A stretch of DNA of 34,794 nucleotides. It comes from a virus. Positions 1 through 34,359 of this stretch are shown piece after piece (position 1 is the stretch's first letter; every line of letters begins with the position of its first letter). A program made the position numbers and the translations under genes. Location of the stretch: the IMG/VR virus record IMGVR_UViG_3300024505_000155, positions 1 to 34,794 of that record. The stretch is one strand, 5' to 3'. Below the pieces are notes generated by a model that saw only the letters and a program-made list of their open reading frames with translations, was not told the DNA's origin and searched no databases.

Positions 1-141
1 TTCAATCTTTTCTTCTGCTGATAGGCATGCCCATAAGTAACCCATAACATATGCGTTACCACTATCTTCGCTATCATTGCGAATTGCTTTTGATAAGCGT
101 TTGATTTGCTGAAGTATCTTCATACTTGTATCTATATCCAT
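1..141 (-). CDS. Partial gene, N-terminus of a small hypothetical protein
   Basis: An open frame begins with ATG at 141 and runs off the left edge without a stop, giving 47 residues that start MDIDTSMKILQQ. I do not recognise it. The visible part is helical-looking, with a basic stretch (QIKRLSKAIR) followed by an acidic patch and a Trp/Cys-containing segment. Its ATG overlaps the TAA of the upstream transglycosylase gene (TAATG), so the two are probably translationally coupled and belong to the same leftward operon. The 3' end and any fold are outside the window. Confidence 0.6.
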   Translation of the reverse strand, partial: MDIDTSMKILQQIKRLSKAIRNDSEDSGNAYVMGYLWACLSAEEKIE

Positions 142-3493: not shown

Positions 3494-3907
3494 TTATTGT
3501 TCTTCATCTCTAATCCACATAAGCAATTTACCTAAGTGGTTTTCACCTTTACCATTGCAGACACCCCAGAAAGTATCTCCCCAGGTATTGCCTTCAACTA
3601 TTTGTTCGTCACCTGTAGCCATTAACTTGGCATTTAACTCAGGGTTTTGAGCAAATTTGGCTCGTAATACGGTAAGCATATAACTTAATTTAGTTTCATT
3701 CCAATCATTAATTAAAGTTATACGCTTACCTAATTGCTTAGCCTCAACTCCAGATAGGTTAGAGAACTTATCCATATCAGGTAAGTATTTACATTTACCA
3801 GCCTGGAATGCGGCTTCAGCATTTCTATACCGTTTGCCATATACAACAACAGGACTTTCATAGAAGTTAGAAAGCCATGCATATTCACCACGAAATGAAG
3901 TTATCAT
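3494..3907 (-). CDS. NADAR-domain protein (YbiA-like)
   Basis: I start this at the ATG at 3907 (MITSFRGEYAWLSNFY), just after the upstream gene's stop. An in-frame longer start exists, but it would run through the zinc-finger gene. The 137-aa protein is a full-length NADAR domain: FRGEYAWLSNFYESPV (5-20), the E31 AAFQAGK helix, an AKQLGK turn (56-61), and the C-terminal EGNTWGDTFWGVCNGKGENHLGK block. NADAR proteins act on ADP-ribose-linked N-glycosides; some reverse guanine ADP-ribosylation made by DarT1-type toxins, others belong to riboflavin or NAD metabolism. In a phage, a counter-defence or NAD-salvage role is plausible but inferred. Confidence 0.85.
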   Translation of the reverse strand: MITSFRGEYAWLSNFYESPVVVYGKRYRNAEAAFQAGKCKYLPDMDKFSNLSGVEAKQLGKRITLINDWNETKLSYMLTVLRAKFAQNPELNAKLMATGDEQIVEGNTWGDTFWGVCNGKGENHLGKLLMWIRDEEQ

Positions 3908-3911
3908 TTCT

Positions 3912-4109
3912 TTATCCTTTCCATACATCATTAAGATGCACATATTCGGTTGGACATGAACCACCCATAAAGCATGGACATGACTCACTGTCAACGAGTT
4001 TTTCTCTGTTTCGTTTACATTTTTCTTCATCTGTACAGGCGTATCCATTTTTCCATAAATCCATTGCAACGCCTTGCTTACCACATAATGAACATGTTGT
4101 TATTGACAT
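3912..4109 (-). CDS. Small zinc-finger protein, 65 aa
   Basis: The protein starts MSITTCSLCGKQGVAMDLW and has a C-x2-C pair at residues 6-9, further cysteines at about 25 and 31, and a CPCFMGGSC segment. The pattern suggests a compact zinc-binding fold. A GGATA sequence upstream of the ATG is a modest ribosome site. The gene heads the leftward unit that continues into the NADAR gene only four bases after its stop, and the promoter-like box at 4221-4238 lies upstream. Function unknown. Confidence 0.6.
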   Translation of the reverse strand: MSITTCSLCGKQGVAMDLWKNGYACTDEEKCKRNREKLVDSESCPCFMGGSCPTEYVHLNDVWKG

Positions 4110-4257: not shown

Positions 4258-4291
4258 CCGTACTACTATAGAAACCAGAATATCAAGCAAA

Positions 4292-4322
4292 GAAAAACCC
4301 CCTATTTCTAGGGGGCTTTTCT
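4292..4322 (-). terminator. Intrinsic terminator, possibly bidirectional
   Basis: A 7-bp stem, CCCCCTA with TAGGGGG, encloses TTTC. On the minus strand it is followed by TTTTTCTTT just after the stop of the 4328-4720 gene. On the plus strand it is followed by CTTTTCT, so it could also stop rightward transcripts. It isolates the GC-rich gene 4328-4720 from the leftward unit beginning at 4109. Confidence 0.85.
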
Positions 4323-4327
4323 AACGG

Positions 4328-4720
4328 TCAGATACCTACGGCATCTACCATGAAGACCGTTTCCCAGGTCTTATCAGGTAACTGACTGCTTCGTAACTTG
4401 CCCGAGACCGAGATTGTTGGGCGTAGCGTCGCCTTGGCGACGTTGCGCTCTCTAGTTTCAGTGCTCTCAGGCTCGCCGTCAACGAAGGCGAGGTCTCCAG
4501 CGGATGTATCTGGTTGCGCAGACTCTTTGGCAAAGTACTGCAACTCCAGGCTGTGGAAGGCATCCACTGCGTCGAAGGAGCGGAACCGTAGCGACGCTTC
4601 GAATTTGCCGCTCGCATCACGCAGAATAAGGATGCCTTTAGCGTAGGCATTGCCCTTCTTGGAGGTGCGAGTCTCGACGTATGCGAGTTCGGCGTTGTCA
4701 TAGGAGATTTGAGTGGACAT
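4328..4720 (-). CDS. Putative OB-fold / nucleic-acid-binding protein, 130 aa
   Basis: The protein starts MSTQISYDNAELAYVETRTS. It has a beta-rich N-terminal half (GNAYAKGILILRDASGKFEASLRF), an acidic linker (about 75-95) and a C-terminal strand pair (PTISVSGKLRSS...ETVFMVDAVGI). This resembles an SSB-like or other small OB-fold protein, but only by strand pattern. Codon use is rich in G/C third positions, unlike the AT-rich neighbours, which suggests recent acquisition or selection for high expression. It has its own terminator and abuts the structured region 4741-5376. Its ribosome site (AGGTTCC) is weak and could pair with the repeated GAACCTG/CAGGTTC words there. Confidence 0.5.
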   Translation of the reverse strand: MSTQISYDNAELAYVETRTSKKGNAYAKGILILRDASGKFEASLRFRSFDAVDAFHSLELQYFAKESAQPDTSAGDLAFVDGEPESTETRERNVAKATLRPTISVSGKLRSSQLPDKTWETVFMVDAVGI

Positions 4721-4740
4721 TGGAACCTGCTTTCACTTTG

Positions 4741-5376
4741 TAGTTTTCAAATTGCGCGGTTGCGCGGAACGCATGAGCGCACAGGTTCTGTAGCAAAGTC
4801 AAGGCGCTTGCGCCGTAATCAACACGCGGAGCCTGCGTAGCGTGGGGATTTGACTTGCTAACAGGTTCTGTGCGAGATTGCATGGAGCAGCACCGCAGCA
4901 TGCAGAAAACTGCATAGTAGAAAGCCGTTCCCTGTCCGCCAAATCCCATGACCGCTGAACCGCTAGTCGGGCGAGCCTCCAAGATTGGCAAGCACGGAGC
5001 AAAGGTATTCTGCGTGATGGCAAATTCGTGCTAGCGAAGGTGAGCCCTTGACTGCGTGGTGCCGACACCCTGGGTTGCGTACTCAGCAAAGAGGCAAGCC
5101 CAGATGCAGACGCTCAGACATCGCCGTAGTGCGAGCCTACTGAAACTGGTGAGCGCAGGTGCATAGCACCAGCACAACGATTGAGGTAAGGGCTGTTCGA
5201 AGCCCAGTTACCATAAGACCAGAAACGGGCATAGAACAATATACTGTCTAGTTAGAATACGCTCCCAGAAATAGGGAGGTAGTCTGCGCAGATAGAACCC
5301 AGTCAGAAGCCCAGACTAACTGTACAGGCTGTCGTCAGACTAACAGTTCTGGGGTCTAGATGACCCCAGACTGTTA
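4741..5376 (+). ncRNA. Candidate large structured noncoding RNA
   Basis: No credible protein gene lies here, yet GC is about 54 % by hand count. Nested helices cover most of it: TAGC/GCTA plus AAGTCAA/TTGACTT (4791-4802 with 4850-4860) close a junction of GGCGC-TT-GCGCC (4803-4814) and CACGC/GCGTG (4823-4844). This domain is flanked by two copies of ACAGGTTCTG. Others are TGCAG-AAAA-CTGCA (4901-4914), AGCACG/CGTGCT (4991-5032), GGTG-CCGA-CACC (5058-5069), CTGGGTTGC/GCAAGCCCAG (5070-5103), CTGGTG/CACCAG (5145-5171), GGTAA-GGGCT/AGCCC-TTACC (5185-5212), CTCCC/GGGAG (5262-5278) and a 15-bp hairpin at 5341-5376. A exceeds T (about 161 to 114) and loops are A-rich, favouring the plus strand. Boundaries and strand are uncertain. 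GOLLD and ROOL RNAs of phages are the known classes to compare. Confidence 0.55.
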
Positions 5377-5446
5377 AAACGGTGACCCAGTTAGTATGTG
5401 TATCTCTACAAAAAATATTTCTGTACAATAGTATACCCCCAGTCTG
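5281..5446. repeat. Cluster of CAGACT/AGTCTG hexamers upstream of terminase
   Basis: The word AGTCTG or its complement CAGACT occurs at 5281-5286, 5312-5317, 5336-5341, 5367-5372 and 5441-5446, with another copy at 5571-5576. Two copies extend to CAGACTAAC followed by TGT or AGT. The cluster is just upstream of the terminase gene, where packaging initiation sites and late-gene operators often lie. It could also be part of the structured RNA's 3' domain. No protein partner can be named. Confidence 0.45.
5341..5376 (+). other. Long stable hairpin at the end of the structured region
   Basis: TAACAG and TCTGGGGTC pair with GACCCCAGA and CTGTTA around a TAGAT loop, with a single bulged T: 15 base pairs in total. 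It is the most stable hairpin in the gap. Neither strand shows a T-run after it, so it is not a normal intrinsic terminator. It may mark the 3' end of the RNA by protecting or processing it, or be a protein-binding site. Confidence 0.6.
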
Positions 5447-5485: not shown

Positions 5486-5514
5486 TTGACCTGTTTGAAC
5501 GGATTAAGTATATA
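5486..5514 (+). promoter_or_regulatory. Promoter candidate for the late operon
   Basis: TTGACC (5486-5491), a 17-base spacer and TATATA (5509-5514) match a sigma70/SigA-type promoter facing the terminase gene. Transcription would begin near 5521, leaving a leader of about 100 bases. The leader includes a weak stem (AGACT/AGTCT, then a T-run, 5518-5546) and the hairpin at 5593-5609. Confidence 0.55.
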
Positions 5515-5625: not shown

Positions 5626-7515
5626 ATGACATTCGAAAAGGGGGCTGAGAACCCCAACCGTGCAAAGGCTAATGCTGATAAGCAGAAGGTTCTAGACCTG
5701 GTATCCGAAGGTATGTCTGTAGCCACGGCTATGACTAAGATGGGGAAGAAGCCTGATACCGCCCGCATCTGGATAATGCGAGACCCAGATTTTGCTCGTA
5801 GGCTAGAGCAGGCTAAGGAAGACGCTAAGACCAACTCCATCAAGGCGCTGGGAATTCCGAAGGATGAAATATCCTTTGCCCAGTTTTCTGAGATGTTCTT
5901 GGGGTCTAAGGTGTTTCCACACCACCAGGACTGGATTGATATGATTGAGGGGCGCGACCCCTCCTGGCTCCACCCTGGTATGACCTATGAGCCTGGGGAC
6001 AAGACTCGTATGCTCATCAATGTTCCACCTGAGCATGCCAAGTCAACCGTAATCACGGTCAACTATTCGACCTACCGTATCGCCATCAATTCGAATGTCC
6101 GCATCATTGTGGTTTCTAAGACGTTGAACAAAGCGCGTGAGTTTGTATACTCAATTAAAAATAGGTTGTCCCACCCTCGTTACGCCAAGATGCAAAACAC
6201 ATTTGGTCCTGAAGGCGGCTGGAAGGGTGATGCAGACACTTGGCGCGTAGATACCGTCTACCTTGGTGGCGATGCGCGTGATTCATCTGAGAAAGACCCA
6301 ACCATCCAAGCCCTAGGTATGGGCGGTCAGATTTACGGCGCTCGTGCTGACCTGATTATCCTAGACGACTGCATCACTACGGCTAACGCCCATGAGTATG
6401 AGAAGCAGATTAACTGGCTACAGAAGGAAGTTATTACTCGTCTTGGCAAGAACGGCAAACTGCTTATCGTAGGAACCCGTATTGCAGCAACAGATTTCTA
6501 TAAGGAACTTCGTGACCCGAAGTACTGGTCTAACGGCAAGTGCCCCTTTACCTATATGGCTATGCCAGCGGTATTGGAGTATGCAGAGAAGCCAGAAGAA
6601 TGGAAAACTTTATGGGCTAAGTCCGACATCCCTTGGGATGGAGATGATGACGAGCCTGATGAGAATGGGTTATACCCCAAGTGGGACGGGCTTGCTTTAC
6701 ATAAACGGCGCGGTGAGGTAACTGCCTCTACTTGGGCGCTGGTCTATCAACAAGAAGATATAACTGAAGATGCAATCTTTTCACCAGCACTGGTGCAAGG
6801 CTGTATCAACGGCATGCGAAAGCGCGGGCTTCTTGACCCTGAGAAACCTGGACACCCAACTGTTGTTCGTGGGTATACCATCATTGGCTTTGACCCTGCT
6901 ATGGGTGCTGGGCATGCAGCATTTGTGGTTATTAACTATAACTCTGCTGACAGTCGTATCTATGTACTTGACTGTGTAAACATGTCTGAACCTACACCAG
7001 GAAAGATTCGGGACACAATTGAAGACTTGGTTACGAAGTACCGCCCTAATGAGTTGCGTGTTGAGATTAATGCTCATCAAAAAGCGTACTCGCTAGATGA
7101 TGATTTACGTAACTGGCTTGCTCAGTATGGCTGTGATTTAAAGCCACACTTTACTGGTAAGAACAAGTGGGACACAAACCTTGGCGTTGCTTCTATGTCT
7201 TCCTTTTTTGGAACGGCAATAGATGGCAAGTTCCAAAATAACAACTCAATAGAGTTCCCATCTACTGATGGTTCAGAAGGCATTAAGTCCCTACTGCAAC
7301 AGTTGATGACATGGAAACCAAATACACGCGGTAAGACCGACTGTGTTATGGCTTTATGGTTTGCCGTCTTACGTGCAAAGGAATTAATGCAGGCGGCTTC
7401 GTTTACGAACCGATATAAAGAAAATCGTTGGGCAACTCGTGCTCAACTTAAAAAGCGACAGTCCATTAATCTTGACGAAGCATTCCAAGAGCAATGGCAA
7501 GAAAACTATGGATAG
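5626..7515 (+). CDS. terL: Terminase large subunit, with an N-terminal HTH-like extension
   Basis: This 629-aa protein is the packaging motor ATPase and nuclease. A Walker A-like loop lies at 133-141 (VPPEHAKST), Walker B at 243-248 (LIILDD) and the coupling motif at 282-285 (VGTR). The RNase H-like nuclease domain shows D423 (IGFDPAMG), E480 (LRVEIN) and D572 (KTDCVMAL). Residues 16-65 (VLDLVSEGMSVATAMTKMG, then DPDFARRLEQAK) look like the DNA-recognition helices of a small terminase. No separate small-terminase gene is visible, so this may be a built-in substitute. An AGGGGAG ribosome site precedes the ATG. The first two thirds are more GC-rich than the last third. Confidence 0.93.
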   Translation: MTFEKGAENPNRAKANADKQKVLDLVSEGMSVATAMTKMGKKPDTARIWIMRDPDFARRLEQAKEDAKTNSIKALGIPKDEISFAQFSEMFLGSKVFPHHQDWIDMIEGRDPSWLHPGMTYEPGDKTRMLINVPPEHAKSTVITVNYSTYRIAINSNVRIIVVSKTLNKAREFVYSIKNRLSHPRYAKMQNTFGPEGGWKGDADTWRVDTVYLGGDARDSSEKDPTIQALGMGGQIYGARADLIILDDCITTANAHEYEKQINWLQKEVITRLGKNGKLLIVGTRIAATDFYKELRDPKYWSNGKCPFTYMAMPAVLEYAEKPEEWKTLWAKSDIPWDGDDDEPDENGLYPKWDGLALHKRRGEVTASTWALVYQQEDITEDAIFSPALVQGCINGMRKRGLLDPEKPGHPTVVRGYTIIGFDPAMGAGHAAFVVINYNSADSRIYVLDCVNMSEPTPGKIRDTIEDLVTKYRPNELRVEINAHQKAYSLDDDLRNWLAQYGCDLKPHFTGKNKWDTNLGVASMSSFFGTAIDGKFQNNNSIEFPSTDGSEGIKSLLQQLMTWKPNTRGKTDCVMALWFAVLRAKELMQAASFTNRYKENRWATRAQLKKRQSINLDEAFQEQWQENYG

Positions 7516-31577: not shown

Positions 31578-31769
31578 CTACTCACATCCATCTATTTCTG
31601 TAGGTGCGGTTGTAATCGTACCGCACTCTACACATTCCTGTGATAAGTCATACCAGCCAACTGCTCTAGTATCTTGGTCCCACATTACATTGATGCGGAA
31701 CATCATGCAACCACATATGCAGGCAAATGTTGGTGTGCCTCTTAAGTCATTCATCTGATTCATACTCAT
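31578..31769 (-). CDS. Small zinc-ribbon protein, 63 aa
   Basis: It starts MSMNQMNDLRGTPTFACICG. The pairs C-x-C (ACICGC) and C-x2-C (QECVECGTIT) and a final Cys form a probable zinc site around a beta hairpin with FRINVMWDQDTRAVGWYDL. The ATG overlaps the TGA of the sigma-like gene (ATGA). Function unknown; it may be a partner of the neighbouring transcription proteins. Confidence 0.6.
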   Translation of the reverse strand: MSMNQMNDLRGTPTFACICGCMMFRINVMWDQDTRAVGWYDLSQECVECGTITTAPTEIDGCE

Positions 31770-32434
31770 GAATCGTCAGCCATTCCAGATAAGTCTCTAT
31801 CTTGCTCATCTGCTGACTCGCCACTGTCTGGCTCATAATATGGTCTCCATCCACCTAGGTTTTTAACTAGTGAGTTCATTGCACGTTGCACTTTCATACG
31901 AGCACCATCTGGTGTGCTGCTCATATCTTTGGCTAGTAATGACCAGTCTGGTGAGTCAATACTAAACCTAAGTCTTAGTATGTTTTGTTTTGCATCTGAT
32001 AGTTTATTAAATGCTGCTGCAATGTCGCTTCGTAAAGTAAGCCAGTTGTTACCTTCGGCATCATTACCACTCCCAAACTTGGCATTGAGGTCTTGTATGC
32101 TAACGGGAATAGCATACGTGCCTGCAATGATGGATGGTAAGAATGCTTCGACAACACTTGTATCGTAATAGTATAAGTCTGATGTGTCGTATCCAGACTT
32201 ACGAGCCTTCTCTCGTTCACAATATTTGAGAGCCGCATTACGTAGTGACTTAGCAATTAATTTATCTCTATCTTTCTGCTCTAGTTCTGACCACTCTTTA
32301 TACTTGCGCGGATGCGCTACGAACCATACCCATAGTTCCTGTCCAATGTCATCTTTCTCTAGCATTGTATATCTGCGAGCATACTCTGCTGCTAGTTGCT
32401 GAACGACATCATTATATTCTGAGATGTAGTTCAT
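31766..32434 (-). CDS. Sigma-factor-like DNA-binding protein, 222 aa
   Basis: Residues 10-75 (QQLAAEYARRYTMLEKDDIG, then QELWVWFVAHPRKYKEWSEL) resemble sigma70 region 2, including the DDIxQExW pattern. Residues 133-195 (RSDIAAAFNKLSDAKQNILR, DWSLLAKDMSSTPDGARMKV, QRAMNSLVKNL) resemble the region 4 helix-turn-helix. The linker is short, as in ECF-type factors, and the tail is acidic. It could direct host RNA polymerase to phage promoters such as the boxes at 2033 and 4221. It lies in an operon with WhiB, which normally acts on sigma region 4. The call rests on pattern only. Confidence 0.65.
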   Translation of the reverse strand: MNYISEYNDVVQQLAAEYARRYTMLEKDDIGQELWVWFVAHPRKYKEWSELEQKDRDKLIAKSLRNAALKYCEREKARKSGYDTSDLYYYDTSVVEAFLPSIIAGTYAIPVSIQDLNAKFGSGNDAEGNNWLTLRSDIAAAFNKLSDAKQNILRLRFSIDSPDWSLLAKDMSSTPDGARMKVQRAMNSLVKNLGGWRPYYEPDSGESADEQDRDLSGMADDS

Positions 32435-33463: not shown

Positions 33464-33731
33464 TTAATAAGTCCCTTAATCCTTGGTCCATAGATTTCTT
33501 GGCTGCATGTACAACCATTTCTTCATATACTTCATCTGTCTTGCCATACTTGGAAGACAATAGCAGACCAGCAATGCTGGTCGCTAGGAACTTGGCTTCC
33601 TCTGGGTCTCTGTCTATAGCCTCATAGACATCATGCAGGGCTGTCAAGATATTAATATATTTGTTTTCAGATAATTGTATAACCATATCAAAGTTGAGAT
33701 GTTCTGCATGTTCCCAGAACCTATCATCCAT
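33450..33731 (-). CDS. Conserved-looking hypothetical protein, 93 aa
   Basis: I prefer the ATG at 33731 (MDDRFWEHAEHLNFDMVIQL), which overlaps the end of the primase gene by eight bases. An in-frame ATG at 33776 would add 15 residues but has no ribosome site. The protein is helical and acidic (ALHDVYEAIDRDPEEAKFLA, then SIAGLLLSSKYGKTDEVYEE). No motif assigns a function. It lies between the primase and Nmad1-like genes. Confidence 0.55.
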   Translation of the reverse strand: MDDRFWEHAEHLNFDMVIQLSENKYINILTALHDVYEAIDRDPEEAKFLATSIAGLLLSSKYGKTDEVYEEMVVHAAKKSMDQGLRDLLNEKP

Positions 33732-34359
33732 TGGCAATGCATTCTCTGATTCGCTCACTAATCCACCCACTTCCATTCTTGATTATCATACTGTTTACAT
33801 CTTCACCATCTGGCATACTGATGATATTCACATTACCTAGTTCACGGCTAATTTTCTTGCCGAACTCTAGTCCAGGTGCATCACCATCTGCAAGTACTAT
33901 CACTGTATCAAAATCATCTAAGATTTTGGCATAGTGTTTTTTCCAGTTGTTAGCCCCTGGAATTCCAACTGTCGGATGTTTAGTCTTGACTGTCATCATA
34001 ATGCAGTCGAACTCACCCTCTGTTACGCAGATGTAATCATCTGCTGCAAAGCATGCTTGTGTATTAAACATAGTAGTTTCTGCGCCAACTAATCCCATAT
34101 ACTTAGCATCATGTGTGCCTGTAATGTCACGGAATCTAATATCAACCACGCCTGATGGCGTGATATAGGGGATAGATAGTCTGCCTAGATATGGTTCATG
34201 CCCTGGAAGTGGGTCTTCTACCACTCCCAAGTGAAAGACTTTTGCCTCGTCTACCGAGAGTTGACGGCTTGACAGATACCGTTCTGCTACTTCTACCTTG
34301 CTTGCGTACCTCTGTGTAGCCTGCAGTAAGAACTGTCTCTGCGAATTGTTTAGCCTCAC
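33724..34359 (-). CDS. DnaG-type primase, Toprim half
   Basis: A GTG at 34359 is preceded by a strong AAGGAAGGAG ribosome site nine bases away. The 211-aa product has RYLSSRQLSVDEAKVFHLGV and GRLSIPYITPSGVVDIRFRD. The Toprim core follows: ICVTEGEFDCIMM (the Glu of the fold) and DTVIVLADGDAPGLEFGKKI (the DxD metal site), with MPDGEDVNSMI after it. It lacks the CHC2 zinc domain, which is in the overlapping upstream gene in another frame. Together they would make a DnaG-like primase that synthesises primers for DNA replication. No separate helicase domain is attached here. Confidence 0.82.
   Translation of the reverse strand: MRLNNSQRQFLLQATQRYASKVEVAERYLSSRQLSVDEAKVFHLGVVEDPLPGHEPYLGRLSIPYITPSGVVDIRFRDITGTHDAKYMGLVGAETTMFNTQACFAADDYICVTEGEFDCIMMTVKTKHPTVGIPGANNWKKHYAKILDDFDTVIVLADGDAPGLEFGKKISRELGNVNIISMPDGEDVNSMIIKNGSGWISERIRECIANG

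Follow-up and report, generated by a model that had tools for sequence, protein, structure and literature searches.

The noncoding segment upstream of the terminase gene in this phage mirrors, in inverted orientation, the whole transcription unit of the neighbouring SSB-like gene (P0001), and comparisons among related phages indicate that the gene and its noncoding arm co-evolve. Positions refer to the window, which is the whole stretch of DNA analysed (34,794 nucleotides). The best explanation that can be offered from the comparative evidence, one to which we would give about an even chance, is that the module is a functional plus-strand rod, preferably of RNA, which is built on a coding gene.

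Organization of the inverted repeat

Comparison of the window with itself reveals an interrupted inverted repeat of about 1 kb at positions 4291-5285 (self minus-strand alignment: 64%, 1080 columns, E ~1e-51), with an inverted-repeat score of 282 versus at most 86 for any 1.2-kb stretch elsewhere. The left arm is the entire neighbouring unit, consisting of the minus-strand gene, its leader and its terminator (Table 1), and the inverted copy of this unit spans 4741-5285. The right arm is noncoding and has many short gaps or small deletions relative to the gene unit, with indel events almost as frequent as substitutions. In the predicted plus-strand fold, 317 of the 425 bases in the right arm are paired with the left arm and 27 are paired within the right side. 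The original prediction had placed a large noncoding RNA in the block 4741-5376, and it overlooked that most right-arm bases are predicted to pair outside this block, with the gene to the left. An assembly artefact is ruled out by identical sequence in separate contigs and by diverged versions in dozens of contigs.

Several properties that the original prediction ascribed to the block are exact. GC content is 0.538 versus 0.408 for the whole window, A exceeds T (161 to 114 over 4741-5340), and credible open reading frames are absent, the block having merely overlapping TTG-started minus-strand frames of 96-97 amino acids. The direct repeats that had been reported on either side of the tip of the rod are present, and the tip domain has the predicted fold that was claimed for it, including the hairpin with the CUUG tetraloop. 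CUUG tips recur in several relatives, and the exact pattern from the tip matches only the same phage in other assemblies. The tip stem of one relative (L188; alignment A4, columns 519-602) has a sequence largely unlike that of its near relatives and has kept its pairing. Single arms of L174, L178, L183 and L190 also hold strong local hairpins (z -4 to -11), and in these four phages the predicted rod may alternate with arrays of hairpins.

Table 1. Positions of the inverted-repeat module and other features within the window
Feature	Position	Strand	Evidence
NADAR-domain gene	3494-4084	-	Pfam PF08719, E 8e-24
Left arm of inverted repeat, antisense to SSB-like gene, terminator and leader	4291-4790	+	Self alignment, predicted fold
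Gene terminator hairpin; right-arm mirror at 5262-5279 pairs with it	4298-4315	-	Terminator scan, self alignment
Protein gene P0001, 130 aa, predicted OB fold, SSB-like	4328-4720	-	AlphaFold2 model, PDB structure matches
First ACAGGTTCTG direct repeat, facing the second in the tip stem	4781-4790	+	Predicted fold
Rod tip domain: hairpin 4803-4814 (CUUG tetraloop) and second hairpin 4818-4849	4791-4860	+	Predicted fold
Promoter-like TTGACT-18-GAGATT at tip, rightward	4850-4879	+	Promoter score; weak
Second ACAGGTTCTG direct repeat	4861-4870	+	Predicted fold
Right arm, noncoding mirror of gene unit	4861-5285	+	Self alignment, predicted fold
15-bp hairpin	5341-5376	+	Predicted fold; in terminase leader block, also in rod-less phages
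Putative late promoter TTGACC-17-TATATA upstream of terminase	5486-5514	+	Sequence reading; block conserved in relatives
Terminase large subunit, first late gene, anchor for relatives	5626-7515	+	PHROG 38, E 2e-66
Sigma-factor-like protein gene	31766-32434	-	PHROG 354, E 9e-20
Small DNA primase or primase fragment	33724-34359	-	PHROG 849, E 1e-42

The SSB-like gene and its locus in related phages

The AlphaFold2 model of P0001 has an OB fold (pLDDT 78), and bacterial SSBs are its top structural matches in the PDB. The values of these best matches (E ~1e-4, TM ~0.5) are such that the term SSB-like refers to predicted structure; the sequence has no Pfam match and no confident PHROG match to SSB families. 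P0001 is probably a DNA-binding protein. Changes among P0001 relatives are mostly at third codon positions, and by this pattern the gene is coding and under purifying selection in the relatives. Relatives of P0001 were found neither in annotated phages nor in bacterial genomes. P0001 is no homologue of the zinc-finger-like gene family that other phages have at this locus.

Genes of the late operon are read on the plus strand from the terminase, and the early genes are read on the minus strand from position 4720. The sigma-factor-like protein is a possible late-transcription switch. Relatives of the phage were collected through the terminase, 80 at first and about 80 more later. In close relatives the block immediately upstream of the terminase is conserved, while the segment between this terminase leader block and the first minus-strand gene is swapped among otherwise similar genomes. 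Cassette exchange at the locus is seen in four pairs of relatives with near-identical flanks and different inserts (L059/L063, L054/L055, L023/L027 and L009/L011).

The giant inverted repeat occurs in 14 of the regions upstream of TerL that were long enough for scoring (z 22-47), and all 14 have a P0001-family gene; the other regions tested have inverted-repeat z values of 4.5 or less. A protein-alignment search of viral contigs gave 39 P0001-family loci, every one of which has a mirror arm. Mirror-arm scores at these loci, some of which are truncated, are 40-222 versus maxima of 17-44 after shuffling, and a terminase of the same group adjoins the locus wherever the flank reaches far enough. 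The rod is absent from the closest named genome, OX376640. The sole DNA match in the phage database (MT836485) falls in an open reading frame resembling an ABC transporter and is due to chance.

Six rod-less relatives (L009, L011, L012, L016, L017 and L066) have other GC-rich noncoding segments of about 400-600 nt at the same place. These segments fold far beyond shuffled sequences, and better on the plus strand (z -5 to -9); an Rfam search of the GC-rich segments of rod-less relatives gave no match. They may be further structured RNAs, to judge from folding predictions. The motif CGCAACGGCCCAGARAGTTCCG is common to such segments of otherwise different phages (L011:1671-1692, L066:3385-3406 and L203-L209).

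Co-evolution of the gene and the mirror arm

Genes of the P0001 family pair with their own mirror arms with scores of 136-222, versus mostly 20-60 with the arms of distant lineages. At paired sites shared between two relatives, compensatory changes outnumber changes in the gene only by 19 to 1 (L191/L198), 23 to 1 (L190/L200) and 26 to 5 (L183/L200). Changes in the right arm only are more common at paired sites than changes in the gene only, which is expected if the gene is constrained. RNAalifold places 303 pairs along the rod in eight relatives, and both sides have changed in 66 of these. Pairs with double changes numbered 59 (mean of 36 and maximum of 43 with shuffled partners) and 67 (mean of 26 and maximum of 36), where the shuffled-partner maxima do not amount to a probability because the sequences are related. 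Pairing is lost when the partner is slid by 1-3 columns. By these comparisons, the gene and the noncoding arm co-vary and co-evolve in the related phage contigs.

Perfect helices within the rod are nearly capped at 10 bp, there being 20 runs of at least 11 bp versus about 119 expected from a geometric distribution. The cap is weaker once plus-strand G.U pairs are counted. Gap sizes cluster at 1-2 nt and 4-6 nt, and L191, L193, L197, L198 and L201 have mostly blocks of 6-10 bp with bulges of 5-6 nt on the gene side. A fixed helix period was sought, and only a broad spread was found. Members of a group have their interruptions at common positions (75-87% identity); distant groups differ in these positions, which counts against a functional rod. 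On the plus strand, GYTY is over-represented in bulges of 4 nt or more, with all six groups above the null (23 of 80 in the largest group versus 6.2 expected), and the complementary-strand control in the bulges gave no enrichment. The cap at 10 bp is compatible with a need to escape RNase III or to avoid unstable palindromes. E. coli processes long, perfectly paired hairpin RNAs even in an RNase III mutant (PMC6627737), so RNase III need not be the sole agent.

The main rival explanation is a mutational quasipalindrome. In this view the gene unit was duplicated in inverted orientation, template switching of DNA polymerase keeps the copy gene-like, the right arm is functionless, and the instability of long perfect palindromes limits the perfect blocks. 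Paired stems are known to be generated and preserved by template switching, which can also yield compensatory change (PMC8794818), and for the coding palindromes of hairworm mitochondria it is a favoured idea (PMC6649704); it may be the source of the compensatory changes here. Consistent with such a process, the arms track each other in short tracts, and the cap is sharpest for exact identity, not for helices that include G.U pairs. Template switching predicts growing identity and erased interruptions, however, yet many interruptions are conserved at 75-87% identity. Neither the two classes of bulge size and the shared bulge motif nor the plus-strand mismatch spectrum described below and the strict linkage to one gene family are predicted by it. 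The persistent interruptions, the shared bulge motif and the plus-strand mismatches favour selection over template switching, and we regard a purely mutational origin as somewhat unlikely.

Strand polarity and transcription

The original prediction assigned the structure to the plus strand, and the pairing evidence favours that strand. Isolated mismatches within helices are of the G.U type 54 times on the plus strand versus 7 on the minus strand, the next commonest plus-strand mismatches being U.U, A.A and A.G/G.A. The plus-strand fold has the lower minimum free energy in 19 of 21 elements (-570.5 versus -526.9 kcal/mol for the element in the window), and consensus energies likewise favour the plus strand (-336 versus -310 and -305 versus -286). 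In L191, L193, L197 and L201 both strands fold about equally well, and the types of gene-only change within helices are too few to tell the strand. Deamination bias on the plus strand could mimic the excess of G.U mismatches, but A is more frequent than T in the right arm (0.257 versus 0.209), which argues against a simple bias of this kind. On the minus strand the bulges are rich in purines, a pattern that would be more usual for a minus-strand RNA and that counts against a plus-strand rod.

Mean promoter scores are positive nowhere except at the tip, where the signal is weak (average z 0.94), and many relatives have similar rightward TTGACN-16..18 promoter-like elements there. Scans on either side of the rod yielded nothing consistent, and no convincing plus-strand promoter was found leftward. 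As the promoter-like element at the tip points to the right, it would yield the right arm alone, which counts against a transcript of the whole rod. The gene terminator, which falls within the left arm, also counts against a plus-strand rod, since the terminator scan gives it a weak form on that strand.

G.T pairing equally suits plus-strand single-stranded DNA, and so RNA is not proved. The plus strand might fold as DNA during replication, with the sites of the GYT bulges serving as a primase or complementary-strand start region, and G.T mismatches would be favoured there too. The phage encodes both a primase gene and the SSB-like protein, and the bulge motif G(C/T)T resembles the T4 primase site. 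A rod of single-stranded DNA leaves the coding gene as one arm unexplained, however, and is considered unlikely. Alternatively, an early transcript could start to the right of the right arm and run into the gene; the mRNA would then fold back on its leader into a hairpin that regulates the ssb-like gene at the level of translation or termination. The span of the rod, which covers the entire transcription unit including the terminator in several lineages, agrees with such a leader, as do the bulges, which are purine-rich on that strand. The 54 mismatches become A.C on the minus strand, where only 7 are of the G.U type, and the minus fold is the weaker one in 19 of 21 elements, making a minus-strand leader decidedly unlikely.

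Folding of the intergenic block alone

The block had been described as helix-dense along nearly its whole length and as a possible stand-alone ornate RNA of the GOLLD or ROOL type, for which its size, its phage context and its GC-rich noncoding character speak; the promoter-like element at the tip could also drive an RNA of the right arm. Folding of 4741-5312 does exceed that of shuffled sequences (z -3.05 on the plus strand; 0 of 100 shuffles equally good). The excess is local, however: it sits in 4721-4920 and 5121-5420, whereas shuffled versions of the middle of the block, 4921-5120, fold just as well as the original (z +0.5). The 15-bp hairpin at the right end, although present, belongs to a block common to phages that lack the rod and is thus part of the terminase leader, not of the element. 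Searches with the Rfam covariance models, those for GOLLD and ROOL among them, gave no match at the gathering score nor among weak matches to E 5, and Rfam searches with relatives of the element also gave none. What had been taken for a stand-alone RNA of this type makes up one half of a 1-kb rod, and a protein gene makes up the other. The proposal of a large noncoding structure under structural constraint stands, while that of a self-contained RNA confined to 4741-5376 is largely refuted and very improbable. Decay of an inverted pseudogene copy of the ssb-like gene, which would suit a noncoding right arm with many small deletions, is given negligible weight in view of the near parity of indels and substitutions, the mirror arm at 39 of 39 loci, the co-variation and the conserved interruptions, and is refuted unless template switching accounts for the co-variation.

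Proposed function and relationship to known elements

To return to the functional rod, it is rather probable that the module is kept by selection as a plus-strand nucleic-acid rod. If the rod is functional, RNA is quite likely its form in preference to single-stranded DNA; if it is RNA, the case for control of the ssb-like gene is evenly balanced. A plus-strand transcript across the locus would fold into the rod, one strand of which would be a full antisense of the ssb-like mRNA. The short helices would shield the rod from RNase III and spare the DNA long perfect palindromes, and the repeated GYUY bulges would serve as docking sites for a protein, which may be the OB-fold protein. Such a rod would most likely regulate the ssb-like gene at about the time of the switch from early to late expression, a timing suggested by the position of the module between the early minus-strand and late plus-strand operons. 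We tentatively propose, at a little under an even chance, that the module represents a new class of phage nucleic-acid element. In such an element, selection would act jointly on a protein gene and its dedicated noncoding mirror arm to form a rod with regular bulges, helices no longer than about one turn and a repeated bulge motif docking a protein, and the same bases would be under both coding and structural selection.

GOLLD and ROOL form a homo-oligomeric RNA cage, and GOLLD is often, though not obligatorily, found near tRNA genes. ARAGORN detected no tRNA in the window. GOLLD and ROOL (PMC12286853) are likewise large structured noncoding sequences in phages, but they are compact multi-helix RNAs, whereas the present element is a rod that includes a coding gene and lies in a window with no tRNAs.

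Both prediction and co-variation indicate a rod of about 1 kb over the whole element, as is the case in obelisks. Hepatitis-delta-type RNA likewise belongs to the class of rods of about 1 kb with a protein in one arm and bulged helices. Obelisks (PMC11922315) share with the phage module an unbranched rod of about 1 kb over the whole element, a protein encoded in one arm, and helices interrupted by bulges. The obelisk is a circular RNA replicon without a DNA stage, however, and its protein is Oblin-1, whereas the phage module was found in DNA phage contigs next to the terminase and its protein is SSB-like with an OB fold in the predicted model. Unlike obelisk and delta RNAs, the phage module is known from DNA sequence, occupies a fixed DNA locus beside the terminase, matched no ribozyme family, and has pairing evidence that favours the strand opposite the open reading frame.

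Mitochondria of Nematomorpha likewise have inverted repeats that overlap coding sequence, are evolutionarily maintained and may involve template switching, but these repeats are perfect, up to 284 bp long, and coding in both arms (PMC6649704). The phage module differs in having one noncoding arm and perfect blocks nearly capped at 10 bp. Cis-encoded antisense RNAs are known in plasmids and phages. The plus-strand left arm resembles them in being antisense to the gene, but here the antisense itself pairs with a third, co-evolving noncoding copy. Among open-access literature and library families we found no phage gene paired as a whole unit with a co-evolving noncoding arm, although a description elsewhere is possible.

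One practical lesson is that a structured-RNA scan of a single intergenic gap can overlook a partner strand in the adjacent gene. If the module is selected, the phage would possess a coding gene that doubles along its entire length as one strand of a long, conserved rod, a reading that can be tested thanks to the depth of the co-variation. If the module is kept by template switching, it would be a natural example, of unusual clarity, of compensatory change in which structure is not selected, and a warning against taking co-variation as proof of function. Whether a selected rod or template switching, both answers bear on the origin of structured RNAs.
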